64,000 nucleotides of DNA. Source: Hymenobacter fodinae (GTDB taxonomy: Bacteria > Bacteroidota > Bacteroidia > Cytophagales > Hymenobacteraceae). Under the pieces are notes generated by a model, which was not told the origin of the DNA, searched no databases, and saw nothing but the letters and a program-made list of their open reading frames with translations. Of the stretch, positions 19,027 to 24,631 are shown in pieces. The stretch spans positions 434,001 to 498,000 of the forward strand of contig NZ_SRLA01000002.1 in assembly GCF_004745825.1 (NCBI RefSeq), read 5' to 3'. Position 1 is the stretch's first letter; each line of letters starts with the position of its first letter. Both the position numbers and the translations under genes were made by a program.

Positions 19027-20013
19027 TTACGCATTTCGCACCTGAATGAGCTCTGCCGCAATACTGATGGCAATTTCCTCAGGGGTGCGGCTGTGAATGG
19101 GTAGGCCAATGGGTGCTGAAATACGGGCTAGCAATTCTTCACTTGCTCCTTCGTGGCGGAGGGTGTTCAGCAACTCGGTAATTTTAGCTTGGCTGCCCAA
19201 CACACCTAAGTAACGCACGGAGTGGCCTAGCAACTGGCGCAGCACCACCAAATCGGAGCGGTACCCCACTGTCATCAGGAGCACGTACTCGTCTGGGCCT
19301 TCGGGTATTTCTGCGGCTATAGCGTCGTAGGCCACCGTGCGCTTGTGGTGGGGGAATGGATTGGCACGTAACGTGGGCAGAGTTGGGCGGTCATCAAGCA
19401 CGGTCAGCTCGAAATCTAGCGCCGCCAGCACACGGCACAGAGCCAAGCACACGTGCCCCGCCCCAATGATGGTAACCCGCGCGGCAAAGCCTAGGCGCTC
19501 CTGGTACTGCCACTGCTCGCCCGGTTGAAAGTCGAACTTCGGGGCACCTTGTGGCGCTGGCAACACTGCTAGGCCAGTAGTTGCTAACTGCAGGAGGGGT
19601 CTGGTATTCTCAGTTAAAGCCTTCACGCACGCTTCTACCGCTGGCAAGTCAGATAAAGCAAGCGGAAAAAGCAGTACCCATTGCTCGCCCGAGCAAATCA
19701 TGCCGGAGCGGTCGGCGGGGGAGTCCTTCCGGTGAATCTGGGGGCGGAAGAGCGGCCTAGTATCGGCTTCCAGTAGGCGGGCGCGGGCTAGCTCCACAAA
19801 CTTGTGTTCCATCACGCCACCTCCAATGGAGCCGGTTGTGTCGTTGGCTGTTACGCTCATTTTGAAGCCCTGGCGGCCGGGGCTGCTGCCCTCACTCGCC
19901 AGCACGCACAGCAGCGCCACCGGCACCCCCGCCCGCAAGTTGGCAGCCGCGTGTTCCCACACAAGCAAATCGCGCGGGGTGGCAGGGGAGGCGTATGGAG
20001 GAAGGGGGCTCAA
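19027..20013 (-). CDS. xdhC: XdhC-family molybdenum cofactor maturation protein
   Basis: This 328-residue protein has the XdhC/CoxI N-terminal domain (ALLCVLASEGSSPGRQGFKM and GSIGGGVMEHKFVELA) and a C-terminal Rossmann-like XdhC_C domain (VTIIGAGHVCLALCRVLAALDFELTVLDDRP, later YLGVLGSQAK and ISAPIGLPIHSRTPEEIAISIAAEL). XdhC binds the molybdenum cofactor and helps insert its sulfurated form into xanthine dehydrogenase. It is the last gene of the leftward xdh cluster. It starts 95 bp after the small membrane-protein gene that separates it from xdhB. Confidence 0.93.
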   Translation of the reverse strand: MSPLPPYASPATPRDLLVWEHAAANLRAGVPVALLCVLASEGSSPGRQGFKMSVTANDTTGSIGGGVMEHKFVELARARLLEADTRPLFRPQIHRKDSPADRSGMICSGEQWVLLFPLALSDLPAVEACVKALTENTRPLLQLATTGLAVLPAPQGAPKFDFQPGEQWQYQERLGFAARVTIIGAGHVCLALCRVLAALDFELTVLDDRPTLPTLRANPFPHHKRTVAYDAIAAEIPEGPDEYVLLMTVGYRSDLVVLRQLLGHSVRYLGVLGSQAKITELLNTLRHEGASEELLARISAPIGLPIHSRTPEEIAISIAAELIQVRNA

Positions 20014-20108: not shown

Positions 20109-20585
20109 TTACCAGTTGGCGCTGAGGGCGTAGTACACGGCCATTACACCCGAAAATAAGGCACTGATTAAAAAGCGCCGGTCGGCTGGTACCTTATTCT
20201 GGATGTAGTAGTTCACCAGTAACGATACGGGTGCATTATACAAGAATGAGCGTGCGGCCATGGGGAGCAAGTCCCAGGTTATCTGGTCAAGCTGGCCCGA
20301 GCACAGCCGGATGAATACAAAGTGGCGGGCAATCCAGAGAGGGTTGAAGTAGGCCAGCGCCAGGGAGGCCCGCCGGAGTTTGGCCGTCCAGCCAGGGCGG
20401 TGTGGCACCCGGTGGTCAATCCAGCGGAAATACGCCGGTACCTCCCACGAGTAAATGGTGCCCGCAATCAGGGCAATGCCGAGCAGGCGCGACCAGGAAA
20501 AGTTGTGTTGAAGCAGGGCCGCGGCCGTGTCGCCGGCGGCGTAAATCAGGGAGCCACGGATGTGGGTACGGTAGTCGAAACGCAA
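20109..20585 (-). CDS. Small membrane protein, possible distant Mpv17/PMP22 relative
   Basis: This 158-residue protein has about four hydrophobic segments. Several phrases resemble the Mpv17/PMP22 family: an N-terminal RGSLIYAAGDTAAALLQ (compare the family's glycine-Asp-Gln helix), GTIYSWEVPAYFRWID (compare G-P-x-x-H-x-W-Y), and the C-terminal APVSLLVNYYIQNKVPADRR (compare W-P-x-x-Q-x-x-N-F-x-x-V-P-x-x-x-R). The match is by eye and distant. The ATG at 20585 makes the gene overlap the 3' end of xdhB by 40 nt. No other in-frame ATG, GTG or TTG early in the gene would shorten this, so translational coupling is likely. Its place between xdhB and xdhC hints at a role connected with purine catabolism, which is inference. 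Confidence 0.6.
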   Translation of the reverse strand: MRFDYRTHIRGSLIYAAGDTAAALLQHNFSWSRLLGIALIAGTIYSWEVPAYFRWIDHRVPHRPGWTAKLRRASLALAYFNPLWIARHFVFIRLCSGQLDQITWDLLPMAARSFLYNAPVSLLVNYYIQNKVPADRRFLISALFSGVMAVYYALSANW

Positions 20586-22855
20586 GCGGGTGTGGTAAGT
20601 AAAACGTCGGGGTAGAGGCTGAGCAATACCTTTTCGGGGGTGATAGGAGCGGAAAATGGTAGGGTAGCGCCGGGACGGAAGCTGCGAATAGCGTCGCGCA
20701 CGGCAAAGTAGGCCCCAATGCCGTACATCAGGGGTGGTTCGCCCACGGCCTTGGAGCGCATAATGGCGTTGGGGTGGCCGGGCGTATCCAGGAAATGCAC
20801 GTCAATAGTTTTGGGCGCCGAGTACAGGTCCGGGATTTTGTAACTGTTCAGGGAATTGCTCAGCAGGCGACCTTCTTCGTTGAACACCAGTTCCTCCAGC
20901 GTCATCCAGCCGATGCCCTGCACTAGGCCACCCTCAATCTGTCCCCGGTCGATTTGCGGGTGCAAGCTCTGGCCGAAGTCGTGGGCAATCTGCACCGCAT
21001 CGAAGGCATACGTGCCGCGCAAACAGTCGACGGTGACGGTGGTAATGGCCGTGCCATAGACGTGGTATGCGAAGGGGTGCCCCTGATTGGTCTGCCCGTC
21101 GAAGTGAATGCCGGGCGTAGCGTAGTGGGCGTTTTCGGTGAGACTCACGCGCTGCCAGTACGCCGCCGACACCAGCTTCTCCCAGGTAGTATCGGCGGGC
21201 GTGCCGGCGGCTAGCACCTGCTCGCCTTCGATGGTCAGGCCTTCGTATTCCAATTGCAGCTCGGTGGCTGCTAAGCGTAGCAGCCGCTCGCGCAAAGCTA
21301 GGCAGGCCAGTTCGGTGGCTTTGCCGTTGAGGTCGGCGGTGGCGCTGGCAGCGGAAGGCGAGGTGTTAGCCACGCGGGTAGTATTGGTGCTTTCCACCTT
21401 CACGCGCTCCGGCGAAATACCCAGCGTGCGCGCTGCCACCAGCATGATTTTGGTGTTTACGCCCTGCCCCATTTCCACGGCACCCGTGCTCACGCCCACC
21501 GAACCGTCGGTGTATATGTGCACCAGGGCACGAGCCTGGTTCATGGGCGTTTTGGTGAAACTGATGCCGAAGCAAATCGGCATTACCGACAGCCCCTTCT
21601 TGAACTGCTGGTTCTGGGCGTTGAAGTCATCTACCTCGGCTCGTAGGCCAGGTAGGTTGTAGCGGCTAGCGGCTGTGTCCCAGGCCTGCTCGGCATGGCA
21701 ACCCTCGGTGGGCTGACGGTAGGGTAGCACGTCGCCCTCGCGCAGCAGGTTACGCCGTTGCAATTCCGCCACCGGCACGCCCAGTTGCTCCGCCGCACAC
21801 ACCAGCGCCGACTCTATCACGAACATTCCCTGCGGCCCGCCAAAGCCCCGGAAAGCGGTGTTGGGCGGCAGGTTGGTGCGGCAGCTGTAGGCCGTGGCCG
21901 TTACGTTGGGGATGAAGTAGCTGTTGGTGGCGTGAAACAGCGTCCGTTCCAGCACGGCTGGCGAAAGGTCGGCTGCGGCACCAGCATTTTGGTAGAACGT
22001 GGCTTCGTAGGCCACTAGCTTTAGGTTTTCGTCAAACCCGATTTTAAAATCGGAGGAGTAGGGGTGACGCTTACCGGTCATGCGCAGGTCGGCCATGCGG
22101 TCAAGCACCAGCTTCACCGGCTTGCGGGTTATGGAAGCGCCCAGTGCGGCCAAGGCACCCCAAGTAGTGGCCTGGTCTTCTTTGCCCCCGAAACCACCGC
22201 CCAAGCGTGTAACGTCTACTTCTACCTGATGCATACCCACACCCAGCACCCGCGCCGTGTGGCGCTGCACCGCGGTAGGGCCCTGGGTTGAAGAAACTAC
22301 ACGCACACCGCCCATTTCGGTGGGAAAGGCATAGGCACCCTGGGTTTCGATGTAGAGGTGCTCCTGCCCGCCCGATTCGGCTACGCCCGCAAACACGTGC
22401 GCGCATTGCGCCCAAGCCGTTTGCGTGTCGCCAATCTGAAACGTGCGCGGCGGTACAATCAGCTCGTTCTGCGCGGCCGCCAGCCGCGGGTCGGTAATAA
22501 TGGGCAGGGGTGAAACCTCTACGCGCACGTGGCCGAGCGCAGCGTGGGCCTGATGCTCGGTTTCAGCTAGTACCAGCGCTACCGGCTGCCCCCTGAAATG
22601 CACGTGCCCTTCGGCCAGCAACGGCTCATCAGGCACGATACCGCCAATTTGGTTTTCCCCCGGAATATCCTCGGCAGTAAGAATGCGCACCACGCCGGGC
22701 AATTGCAGGGCGGCCTCAAAATCAATGCTAAGCAGCTTGCCATGCGCCACCGGTGACTCTACCACGGCCGCGTACAAGGTGCCCTGTTGCACCGGAATAT
22801 CATCGAGGTACTGCGATTCGCCGCGCACGTGGCGGGCTGGGTCGAGGTGGTTCAT
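20546..22855 (-). CDS. xdhB: Xanthine dehydrogenase, molybdopterin-binding subunit
   Basis: This 769-residue protein is the large catalytic subunit that oxidises hypoxanthine and xanthine. It starts directly with the conserved HLDPARHVRGESQYLDDIPV region. Molybdopterin-binding motifs include TRLGGGFGGKEDQA, NTAFRGFGGPQGMFVIE and VEMGQGVNTKI. The active-site Glu lies in the C-terminal KAVGEPPLMYGIGAYFAVRDAIR. Length and order fit bacterial XdhB. It lies 180 bp downstream of xdhA on the same strand and upstream of the small membrane gene and xdhC, forming a purine-oxidation operon. Confidence 0.95.
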   Translation of the reverse strand: MNHLDPARHVRGESQYLDDIPVQQGTLYAAVVESPVAHGKLLSIDFEAALQLPGVVRILTAEDIPGENQIGGIVPDEPLLAEGHVHFRGQPVALVLAETEHQAHAALGHVRVEVSPLPIITDPRLAAAQNELIVPPRTFQIGDTQTAWAQCAHVFAGVAESGGQEHLYIETQGAYAFPTEMGGVRVVSSTQGPTAVQRHTARVLGVGMHQVEVDVTRLGGGFGGKEDQATTWGALAALGASITRKPVKLVLDRMADLRMTGKRHPYSSDFKIGFDENLKLVAYEATFYQNAGAAADLSPAVLERTLFHATNSYFIPNVTATAYSCRTNLPPNTAFRGFGGPQGMFVIESALVCAAEQLGVPVAELQRRNLLREGDVLPYRQPTEGCHAEQAWDTAASRYNLPGLRAEVDDFNAQNQQFKKGLSVMPICFGISFTKTPMNQARALVHIYTDGSVGVSTGAVEMGQGVNTKIMLVAARTLGISPERVKVESTNTTRVANTSPSAASATADLNGKATELACLALRERLLRLAATELQLEYEGLTIEGEQVLAAGTPADTTWEKLVSAAYWQRVSLTENAHYATPGIHFDGQTNQGHPFAYHVYGTAITTVTVDCLRGTYAFDAVQIAHDFGQSLHPQIDRGQIEGGLVQGIGWMTLEELVFNEEGRLLSNSLNSYKIPDLYSAPKTIDVHFLDTPGHPNAIMRSKAVGEPPLMYGIGAYFAVRDAIRSFRPGATLPFSAPITPEKVLLSLYPDVLLTTPACVSTTVPTSVAP

Positions 22856-23036: not shown

Positions 23037-24521
23037 TTACAGCAGGTCAGTTAACTGCAGCTGCGCCGGGAAGAACTGCAGGAAATGCGCCGCCAGTAAC
23101 TGCCGCAACAGCAGGCGCTTGTACTGCACAGTTCCGCGTACGTCACTGATGGGGCTTATTTCCTCCTGGGCCAGCTCTAGTGCCCCACGTACCGTCTCGG
23201 CGCTAATTTCCCGACCTACCAAAAACTCGGCCGTGCGCGGCAGCATCAGCGGCACTGGACCAACTCCCCCCGCCGAAAGCCGAACAGCTTGCACTAGGCC
23301 ACCCTGCACCCGCAGCCACGCCGCTGAGTTCACGCTGGCAATGTCGAGGTGAGTGCGCTTTGATACCTTCTCAAAGTTGAAGTAATCGGTAATTAAGGGC
23401 GCCGGAAAATGAATGGAAAGCACTTGCTCGTCGGCCATTTTTGCCAGTTGCTTGTAGCCTAGGTATAGGTCTTGCAGCGGTAACTCTCGGCGCTGGCCTA
23501 GGCCAGGGTCTTCCAGGGTAAGACTAGCACCGAGGGCCAAAAACAGAATAGTTAGGTCTCCGATGGGCGAAGCGTTGATGAAGTTACCCGCCACGGTGCC
23601 CATGTTCCGAATAGGGGTACTCGACACCAGCTTCAGGTACTCTGGCAGGTGCGGCAGCATCTCTTGCAGCACCTCAGACTCCAGCAGTTCTTGGGCCGTG
23701 GTGGCGGCGCCCAGCACAATTTGGTGGCCTTCGCGGCGAATACCACGGCGCTCGGGCTGCCCGTACAGCAGTTGCACCGGCATCTCGCGCAGCTGCTCGG
23801 GGCGCTGCACCAGCAAATCGGTGCCGCCGCCTAGCACTTGGGCACGGGCCGCCGAGGCAGCATCTAGGCCAGTGACGGTAACGGAATGACTGTTCTGAGC
23901 CGGCTGTGCGCTTACTGCGGAGGCTTCGGTGGCCGCGCGCAGAGCCGTGAGCTTAGCCGGAATGCCTTGGAAATAGGTAGGCACGAAACCTTGCTCCGCC
24001 AGCCAAGCTAAGGGTTGCTCCGTAGGCCGGTTCGTCAGTTGTTGCTGCAGGGCCAGCGTAGCTCGCTCTAGTGACTTATAGCCCGTGCAGCGGCAGATGT
24101 TGCCGTCAATGGAGGCCAGAGCCGTTTCTGGAGTGCCAGGCTTTGGGTTGAGCGAGTGACCGGTCAACGACATCACAAAACCTACCGTGCAAAATCCGCA
24201 CTGTGAGCCGCCCTCCGCCACAATGGCCTGCTGCACCGGCGTGAGCGTGCCCCGCGCCGCATTAATACCCTCCACTGTCACTACATGGCGGCCGTGCGCA
24301 TTGCCCAGCGGCGTCAGGCACGAGGTCATGGATTGGTAGCTTACGGTTTGCCCATCGGGTTGTAGCTCGCCTACCAGCACTGTGCAGGCCCCACAGTCGC
24401 CCTCGCGGCACCCTATTTTCGTGCCCGTCAGGTGGCGGTGGTAGCGCACAAAGTCCAGGAGCGTGCTACCCGCCGGCTGACTGGTGCGGATGAGCTGATC
24501 GTTGAGATAGAACTGAAGCAT
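23037..24521 (-). CDS. xdhA: Xanthine dehydrogenase, small subunit (2Fe-2S and FAD)
   Basis: The protein (about 494 residues from the ATG at 24521) carries electrons from the molybdenum centre to NAD+. The plant-type 2Fe-2S domain has GCREGDCGACTVLVGEL (Cys near 38, 43 and 46). The second cluster domain has SQCGFCTVGFVMSL and NICRCTGYKSLERA. A FAD-binding domain follows with LGGGTDLLVQ and TVAGNFINASPIGDLTILFL, then the CO-dehydrogenase-flavoprotein C-terminal domain. The frame opens further upstream to 24620, but MLQFYLNDQLIR is the natural N-terminus. It is the first gene of the leftward xdh operon. Confidence 0.94.
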   Translation of the reverse strand: MLQFYLNDQLIRTSQPAGSTLLDFVRYHRHLTGTKIGCREGDCGACTVLVGELQPDGQTVSYQSMTSCLTPLGNAHGRHVVTVEGINAARGTLTPVQQAIVAEGGSQCGFCTVGFVMSLTGHSLNPKPGTPETALASIDGNICRCTGYKSLERATLALQQQLTNRPTEQPLAWLAEQGFVPTYFQGIPAKLTALRAATEASAVSAQPAQNSHSVTVTGLDAASAARAQVLGGGTDLLVQRPEQLREMPVQLLYGQPERRGIRREGHQIVLGAATTAQELLESEVLQEMLPHLPEYLKLVSSTPIRNMGTVAGNFINASPIGDLTILFLALGASLTLEDPGLGQRRELPLQDLYLGYKQLAKMADEQVLSIHFPAPLITDYFNFEKVSKRTHLDIASVNSAAWLRVQGGLVQAVRLSAGGVGPVPLMLPRTAEFLVGREISAETVRGALELAQEEISPISDVRGTVQYKRLLLRQLLAAHFLQFFPAQLQLTDLL

Positions 24522-24631
24522 GGGTGGGGCAGGAAAACAAGAGCGGAAGGGAAAGTTACAGCTTTTCGGCCTTTCGGCGTAACAATTAGGTAACATAGGC
24601 GCCCAGCCGCCCGTGCCCAATCCCCCCTAGT

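Follow-up and report, generated by a model that had tools for sequence, protein, structure and literature searches.

The window, a stretch of 64,000 nucleotides, carries on its minus strand a gene run in the order xdhA, xdhB, X and xdhC, in which X is the name used here for the gene at 20109..20585. The xdhA gene (23037..24620, minus strand) encodes the FeS/FAD subunit (PF00941, PF01799 and TIGR02963), xdhB (20546..22855, minus strand) encodes the molybdopterin subunit of xanthine dehydrogenase (PF02738, PF20256 and TIGR02965, the last at 788 bits against a cut-off of 849.5), and xdhC (19027..20013, minus strand) encodes a member of the molybdenum-cofactor insertion chaperone family (PF13478, PF02625, TIGR02964 and NF045664). 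These identities are backed by Pfam and NCBIfam, all three proteins scoring below the curated cut-off of their own xanthine-specific NCBIfam model (for xdhC, below the cut-offs of both TIGR02964 and NF045664). Since the TIGR02963 match on xdhA starts at residue 35, the reading frame is longer than the protein, and translation probably begins near 24521. X (minus strand, TTG start) encodes a 158-residue membrane protein with a predicted Mpv17 fold, shares 40 nt with xdhB and stops 95 nt before xdhC. The coordinates agree with the sequence-only reading, which had placed a 158-residue gene between xdhB and xdhC with a 40-nt overlap with xdhB, and the phrases it quoted (AAGDTAAALL, SWEVPAYFRWIDHRVP and VNYYIQNKVPADRR) are all present in X.

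Comparison of X with its closest relative, L012 (record title Hymenobacter wooponensis), gave 14, 2 and 47 differing sites at codon positions 1, 2 and 3, respectively, as is typical of a protein subject to purifying selection. The closest relatives of X place the window in Hymenobacter. Genomes carrying X numbered 11 of 61 in Hymenobacter and 8 of 296 in a sample of the phylum. Given the codon pattern, the 11 genomes of the genus and 52 loci in named genomes, the X reading frame is a real, conserved gene rather than a chance one.

The window protein matched nothing in Pfam at E ≤ 10 or in NCBIfam at E ≤ 1, Pfam searches with 43 X-family members returned only chance-level matches, and X matched none of the known purine or urate membrane family models (e.g., NCS2 permease) in Pfam or NCBIfam. 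The 52 loci, 24 from Hymenobacter and 28 from elsewhere, were found by scanning named genomes with an alignment of 11 rows, and because the seed patterns of the scan were strict, more distant members were probably missed. By record title the 28 loci belong to at least eight phylum-level groups: other Bacteroidota, Proteobacteria (Alcanivoracaceae, Rhodocyclaceae and Lysobacterales), Calditrichota, Ignavibacteriales, Eisenbacteria, Aegiribacteria, Kiritimatiellia, Myxococcota and Acidobacteriota, with 24 of the 28 titled as MAGs, such that individual titles may be wrong. A 43-row alignment was then composed of the window protein and 42 of the 52 loci; the ten omitted are all from Hymenobacter and include two copies with an in-frame stop in the matched stretch (L028:6001-6462 at codon 49 and L029:6001-6462 at codon 122). 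Owing to these stops X appears to be decaying in both. Records L026 and L029 share the strain name Hymenobacter negativus BT442, yet the neighborhoods of xdh and X are not the same in the two, and one of the names may be in error. X belongs to a broad bacterial family of its own. The sequence-only reading had regarded a bacterial copy tied to purine oxidation as unusual, and although the tie to xdh genes stands, X is no isolated oddity, as a whole family exists. No description of the X protein was found among the matches listed from the open-access literature (titles and abstract starts) on bacterial Mpv17, PF04117, xdh membrane proteins and operons, and Hymenobacter XDH and uric acid; by this negative the family may be newly described.

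All 52 X loci had xdhB or xdhC within 5 kb. Outside Hymenobacter one or the other lay within 400 bp of X in 28 of 28 loci (xdhB in 22, xdhC in 19 and both in 13), and within Hymenobacter in 17 of 24 (both in 11), the remaining seven having xdhB 0.66-4.8 kb upstream. Among seven further X loci from the phylum sample, five had an adjoining xdhB or xdhC. In L069 the contig ends at X and xdhB is on a different one, and in L070 (genome G322) X has no xdh neighbor. Conservation of the order xdhB-X-xdhC had been proposed as a check, and the linkage indeed extends far beyond Cytophagales, but the strict order does not hold throughout, since both genes flank X within 400 bp in 24 of the 52 loci and neither L069 nor L070 has an adjoining xdh gene. 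With its linkage to xdhB or xdhC conserved across distant taxa, X qualifies as an accessory gene of the xdh genes. The order is rearranged to X-xdhC-xdhA-xdhB in L093:1561-8133 (genome G342), where an unrelated ORF separates xdhA from xdhB. Directly before xdhA in several X loci lies a gene of the cytidine/guanine-deaminase type (PF00383; L045:1816-2295, with relatives in L051, L052, L058 and L061), and such an arrangement might form a guanine-to-urate operon.

XDH does not need X, though X is tied to XDH. We counted xdhB at E ≤ 1e-200, a threshold of our choosing that dropped weaker matches in 3 of 40 genus and 2 of 40 phylum genomes; by this count 37 of 61 genus genomes have xdhB, and in no genus genome does it attain the curated cut-off of the model. 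Shared descent being ignored in both tests, xdhB was present in 11 of 11 X genomes of the genus versus 26 of the 50 lacking X (p 0.002), and in 7 of 8 X genomes of the 296-genome phylum sample versus 31 of the 288 lacking X (38 in all; p 2e-6). X is dispensable for XDH because it is absent from 26 of the 37 xdhB genomes of the genus and from 31 of the 38 of the phylum sample. Among the 26 genus genomes with xdhB and without X, the xdhB region was inspected in 20; none of these regions contained X, and eight had xdhC nearby. In a tree of XdhB fragments built from the window and 44 of 47 loci (L030 was omitted for want of xdhB in the locus, and L077 and L084 were too short), X was scattered, with six changes of the X label on the best tree and at least three forced by well-supported branches; these changes are compatible with gains or losses alike. 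An ORF judged by eye to be microbial rhodopsin-like is located within a few kb of xdhB in L073:3986-4822 and L075:4190-5026, with a further member of its cluster in L083, all in Hymenobacter lacking X.

The fold of X is predicted confidently by AlphaFold2, with a pLDDT of 86.7 from 11 sequences and of 93.0 (pTM 0.85) from 43 sequences. When this model was compared with predicted models of viral proteins by Foldseek, the best match was A0A2P0VP22 of Tetraselmis virus 1, annotated 'Putative Mpv17/PMP22 family protein' (probability 1.00, TM 0.72/0.78, rmsd 3.2, E 6.2e-4). The only other confident match was M1I2L4, an unnamed protein (probability 1.00, TM 0.72/0.77, E 0.009), and the other 48 viral matches listed had probabilities of 0.15 or less. 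The same two proteins led when the 11-sequence model was used, A0A2P0VP22 with probability 1.00 and TM 0.67/0.73, the rest being at 0.33 or less. Hence, model against model, X shares the three-dimensional fold of Mpv17/PMP22 and is Mpv17-like in its predicted fold, as the structure check suggested by the earlier reading had sought. Against the PDB the X fold had no match at E ≤ 0.001; as SYM1 has no relative in the PDB by sequence, an Mpv17 match could hardly be expected from there. The PDB rows from VIA-align (best Z 6.2, regulator DhaS) fell within the range that is uninformative for helical bundles, and the only PDB sequence match of X, to a cytochrome oxidase subunit (E 0.025), was chance-like; both were set aside.

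Similarity at the level of sequence is weak. PF04117, the Mpv17/PMP22 model, gave no match to the window protein at E ≤ 10 and one match among the 43 members (E = 1, short of the Pfam gathering score of 27 bits), whereas with the same tool SYM1 reaches 98 bits and PMP22 reaches 66. Thus, the assignment of X to Mpv17/PMP22 in the earlier reading survives in the predicted fold and not in the Pfam model, and membership of X in PF04117 was rejected, as that model does not recognize X. A PF04117 search of the 296 phylum genomes gave no matches, but neither did its control set, which makes it uninformative. For profile-profile comparison the hhalign template consisted of yeast SYM1 and Arabidopsis PMP22 only, both confirmed by PF04117. 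The X profile aligned with this template over 133 columns, colinearly and nearly at full length (E 0.0015), and although the probability was weak (16%), the score of 27.4 exceeded that of 300 of 300 column shuffles (maximum 21.2), the reversed template giving 11.7. Single templates were weaker, and of 88 background membrane-like proteins none beat SYM1 and five beat PMP22. The C-terminal motif of SYM1 and PMP22 is I-N-[FY]-x-x-V-P-L-x-x-R followed by W eleven residues later, and it is partly kept in X, where N125 and R137 are each found in 43 of 43 members, Y/F126 in 39, P133 in 20 and [VIL]PL-x-x-R in 12, with three more residues from N to P and M (43/43) in place of W. X is probably a distant sister of Mpv17/PMP22. 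That it is instead an unrelated small helical membrane protein with a generic helical-bundle resemblance to Mpv17 is very improbable, for although PF04117 finds nothing useful in X, plant PMP22 taken singly is surpassed by background proteins and the Mpv17 comparison rests on models rather than a solved Mpv17 structure, the viral matches drop steeply after the top two, the first of them annotated Mpv17/PMP22, and the colinear profile alignment outscores every shuffle.

In the 43 sequences 21 polar, Tyr/Trp or Pro positions are at least 90% conserved (Y15, D19, R33, Y45, E48, P50, Y79, N81, P82, W84, R87, H88, S113, N117, P119, N125, Q129, R137, S141, S145 and Y152), of which 20 lie in predicted helices and all lie in or adjoining helices. 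Because invariant charges are located within predicted helices of a small membrane protein, they suggest a polar path or binding site in X. We tentatively favor, at somewhat short of an even chance, the interpretation that X is an Mpv17-fold cytoplasmic-membrane protein that passes purine bases and/or urate for XDH. A purine base (xanthine, hypoxanthine or guanine) would enter and/or urate would leave via X, acting as a selective pore or facilitator, and cytoplasmic XDH would be fed or cleared by this passage. X would then act like Pxmp2, the peroxisomal Mpv17-family channel, and conserved polar residues such as D19, R33, E48, R87, H88, N117, N125, Q129 and R137 could line the path.

The genome that separates this interpretation from its closest competitor is G322, a single draft that is 99% complete by its record and carries X (L070 and L091). 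No MoCoBD_2 match was found in G322, and the other 10 of the 11 genomes in the same search had one. Its X gene is 9 bp upstream of a purine-deaminase-like amidohydrolase gene, which is followed by an XTP/dITP diphosphatase gene. The best NCBIfam model for the amidohydrolase was 5'-deoxyadenosine deaminase (508 bits, cut-off 522), and the guanine deaminase model scored lower (255 bits against a cut-off of 375). This one draft genome says that X belongs with purine bases, beyond the molybdoenzyme alone. Passage of a solute is favored over a role in enzyme maturation because G322 has X together with purine genes and no XDH was found there.

Maturation has evidence of its own. X could be a membrane anchor or maturation partner of XdhC and XDH that tethers the chaperone or the enzyme, or helps deliver the sulfurated molybdenum cofactor, an unlikely explanation that we rank second because G322 has X without any XDH found. 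In four loci titled as gammaproteobacterial (L043, L050, L056 and L057) the X and xdhC matches are at most 40 bp apart with no xdhB in the locus, and strong MoCoBD_2 matches are located elsewhere in the corresponding genomes G364, G371 and G377, that in G378 being partial only. Genome G034 likewise has an X-xdhC pair about 41 kb from xdhB. A close partnership with XdhC sits poorly with eight xdhB-X loci outside Hymenobacter that have no recognizable downstream xdhC (L037, L039, L044, L048, L049, L053, L054 and L055; L040 also lacks it, but there a contig end cuts the locus) and with G322, where there would be no XDH to mature. Moreover, passages on Rhodobacter XdhC describe no membrane partner for that protein (PMC2997495).

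If X passes purines or urate, the fate of urate and the presence of other permeases bear on which solute is carried. Uricase (PF01014) was found in none of 18 X genomes searched. HIU hydrolase was found in two of the 35 X genomes from other genera, many of which are drafts that may be incomplete. Urate breakdown is thus often missing in X genomes, which counts for urate leaving through X. Among xdhB genomes of the genus, HIU hydrolase was present in 7 of 11 with X versus 25 of 26 without X (p 0.021, the rows not being phylogenetically independent), and the same contrast in the phylum sample (0 of 7 versus 10 of 31, p 0.16) was not significant. The NCS2 purine permease (PF00860) scored above the Pfam cut-off in 13 of 46 X genomes, or 18 of 46 at E ≤ 0.001, compared with 11 of 14 well-known genomes used as controls, which are not matched relatives of the X genomes (shared descent was again ignored). 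This scarcity counts for bases entering through X. In three X-less Hymenobacter, ORFs resembling urate oxidase lie beside xdhC or one gene from it, next to an ORF that by eye is allantoinase-like: L081:2461-3348, the one ORF checked, which TIGR03383 identifies as a factor-independent urate oxidase, and similar ORFs in L085 and L089.

A narrower explanation, which we judge unlikely, is that X is a specific urate exporter for a truncated purine pathway, dispensable once urate can be degraded. It draws on the genus contrast in HIU hydrolase and on the absence of that enzyme from 33 of the 35 X genomes outside Hymenobacter, several being drafts. Five xdhB genomes of the genus have no HIU hydrolase over the cut-off, and X is present in four of them, the window genome G000, G007, G008 and G043 (fragments), the X-less fifth being G005 (fragments). 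Also in its favor are the X copies with in-frame stops, of which the one in L028 adjoins ORFs grouped by clustering with ureide-degradation genes from L025, and the uricase-like ORF adjoining xdhC or one gene off in three X-less genomes, one of them confirmed by a family model. However, HIU hydrolase is kept in seven X-bearing Hymenobacter, X itself adjoins the ureide cluster in L025 and, by clustering, in L032 and L061, 21 of 28 xdhB genomes of the phylum sample without HIU hydrolase are X-less as well, and G322 has X yet makes no urate by XDH. Urate export only was rejected as the main statement on account of the 7 of 11 X-bearing Hymenobacter with HIU hydrolase and of G322, which lacks XDH.

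Passage of purine bases and/or urate, the interpretation we favor, can be set beside reports on eukaryotic members of the fold. Pxmp2 is described as a channel, and its knockout in mouse gave latent urate oxidase and raised urate (PMC2662417). A paper that describes lower mitochondrial dGTP and dTTP and restricted purine salvage upon loss of MPV17 also cites work in which fish deficient in Mpv17 lost their guanine crystals (PMC4711891). It has been suggested that Mpv17-family members could all be channels that differ in substrate (PMC4117752). By analogy, a bacterial X beside the urate-making XDH fits the purine and urate line of Pxmp2 and MPV17. The title of a paper on the zebrafish Mpv17 phenotype (PMC3711038) names a loss of iridophore survival and not of purine transport, which counts against the purine reading. 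Going further, eukaryotic Mpv17 and PXMP2 might descend from, or share an ancestor with, XDH-linked bacterial proteins, with purine or urate permeation as the ancient job of the fold and X as an Mpv17-fold purine-base/urate channel. We consider this quite unlikely, but if true it would explain the urate phenotype of the Pxmp2 mouse together with the effects that losing Mpv17 has on purine salvage and guanine crystals. The cargo of the Mpv17 family is an open question linked to human disease (mitochondrial DNA depletion), and a compact bacterial relative whose neighbors name a pathway provides a concrete and easily testable guess, namely purines and urate. With X, many xanthine dehydrogenase operons of bacteria also gain an extra component that has had no name so far.

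Among known systems, X resembles the Mpv17/PMP22 proteins (PF04117: MPV17, SYM1, PXMP2 and plant PMP22) in predicted fold and size, and the weak colinear profile match to them takes in a GD helix, an F-x-P helix start and an invariant C-terminal N...R pair. In 20 of the 43 members a proline precedes this arginine by four residues, as it does in SYM1 (VPLQHR) and PMP22 (VPLHFR). X differs in lying below Pfam detection, in having a signature of its own (YFNPLWIARH), in being three residues longer from N to P, in the methionine (43/43) where SYM1 and PMP22 have tryptophan, and in being bacterial and genetically tied to xanthine dehydrogenase. The NCS2 xanthine/uracil permeases could have the same task, the passage of purine bases, but X has no sequence match to them and does not reach half of the PF00860 model in length. 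Pxmp2 of mammalian peroxisomes is like X in its Mpv17-family fold and functional tie to urate; it forms a wide general pore (1.4 nm) in an organelle membrane, whereas X presumably resides in the energized cytoplasmic membrane, where so wide a pore would be harmful, and X would therefore have to be narrower or gated. Finally, compared with the bacterial xdhABC operon, the subunits and the XdhC chaperone are alike, and the difference is that 11 of the 37 xdhB genomes of the genus have X as a fourth gene within the operon or close to it.
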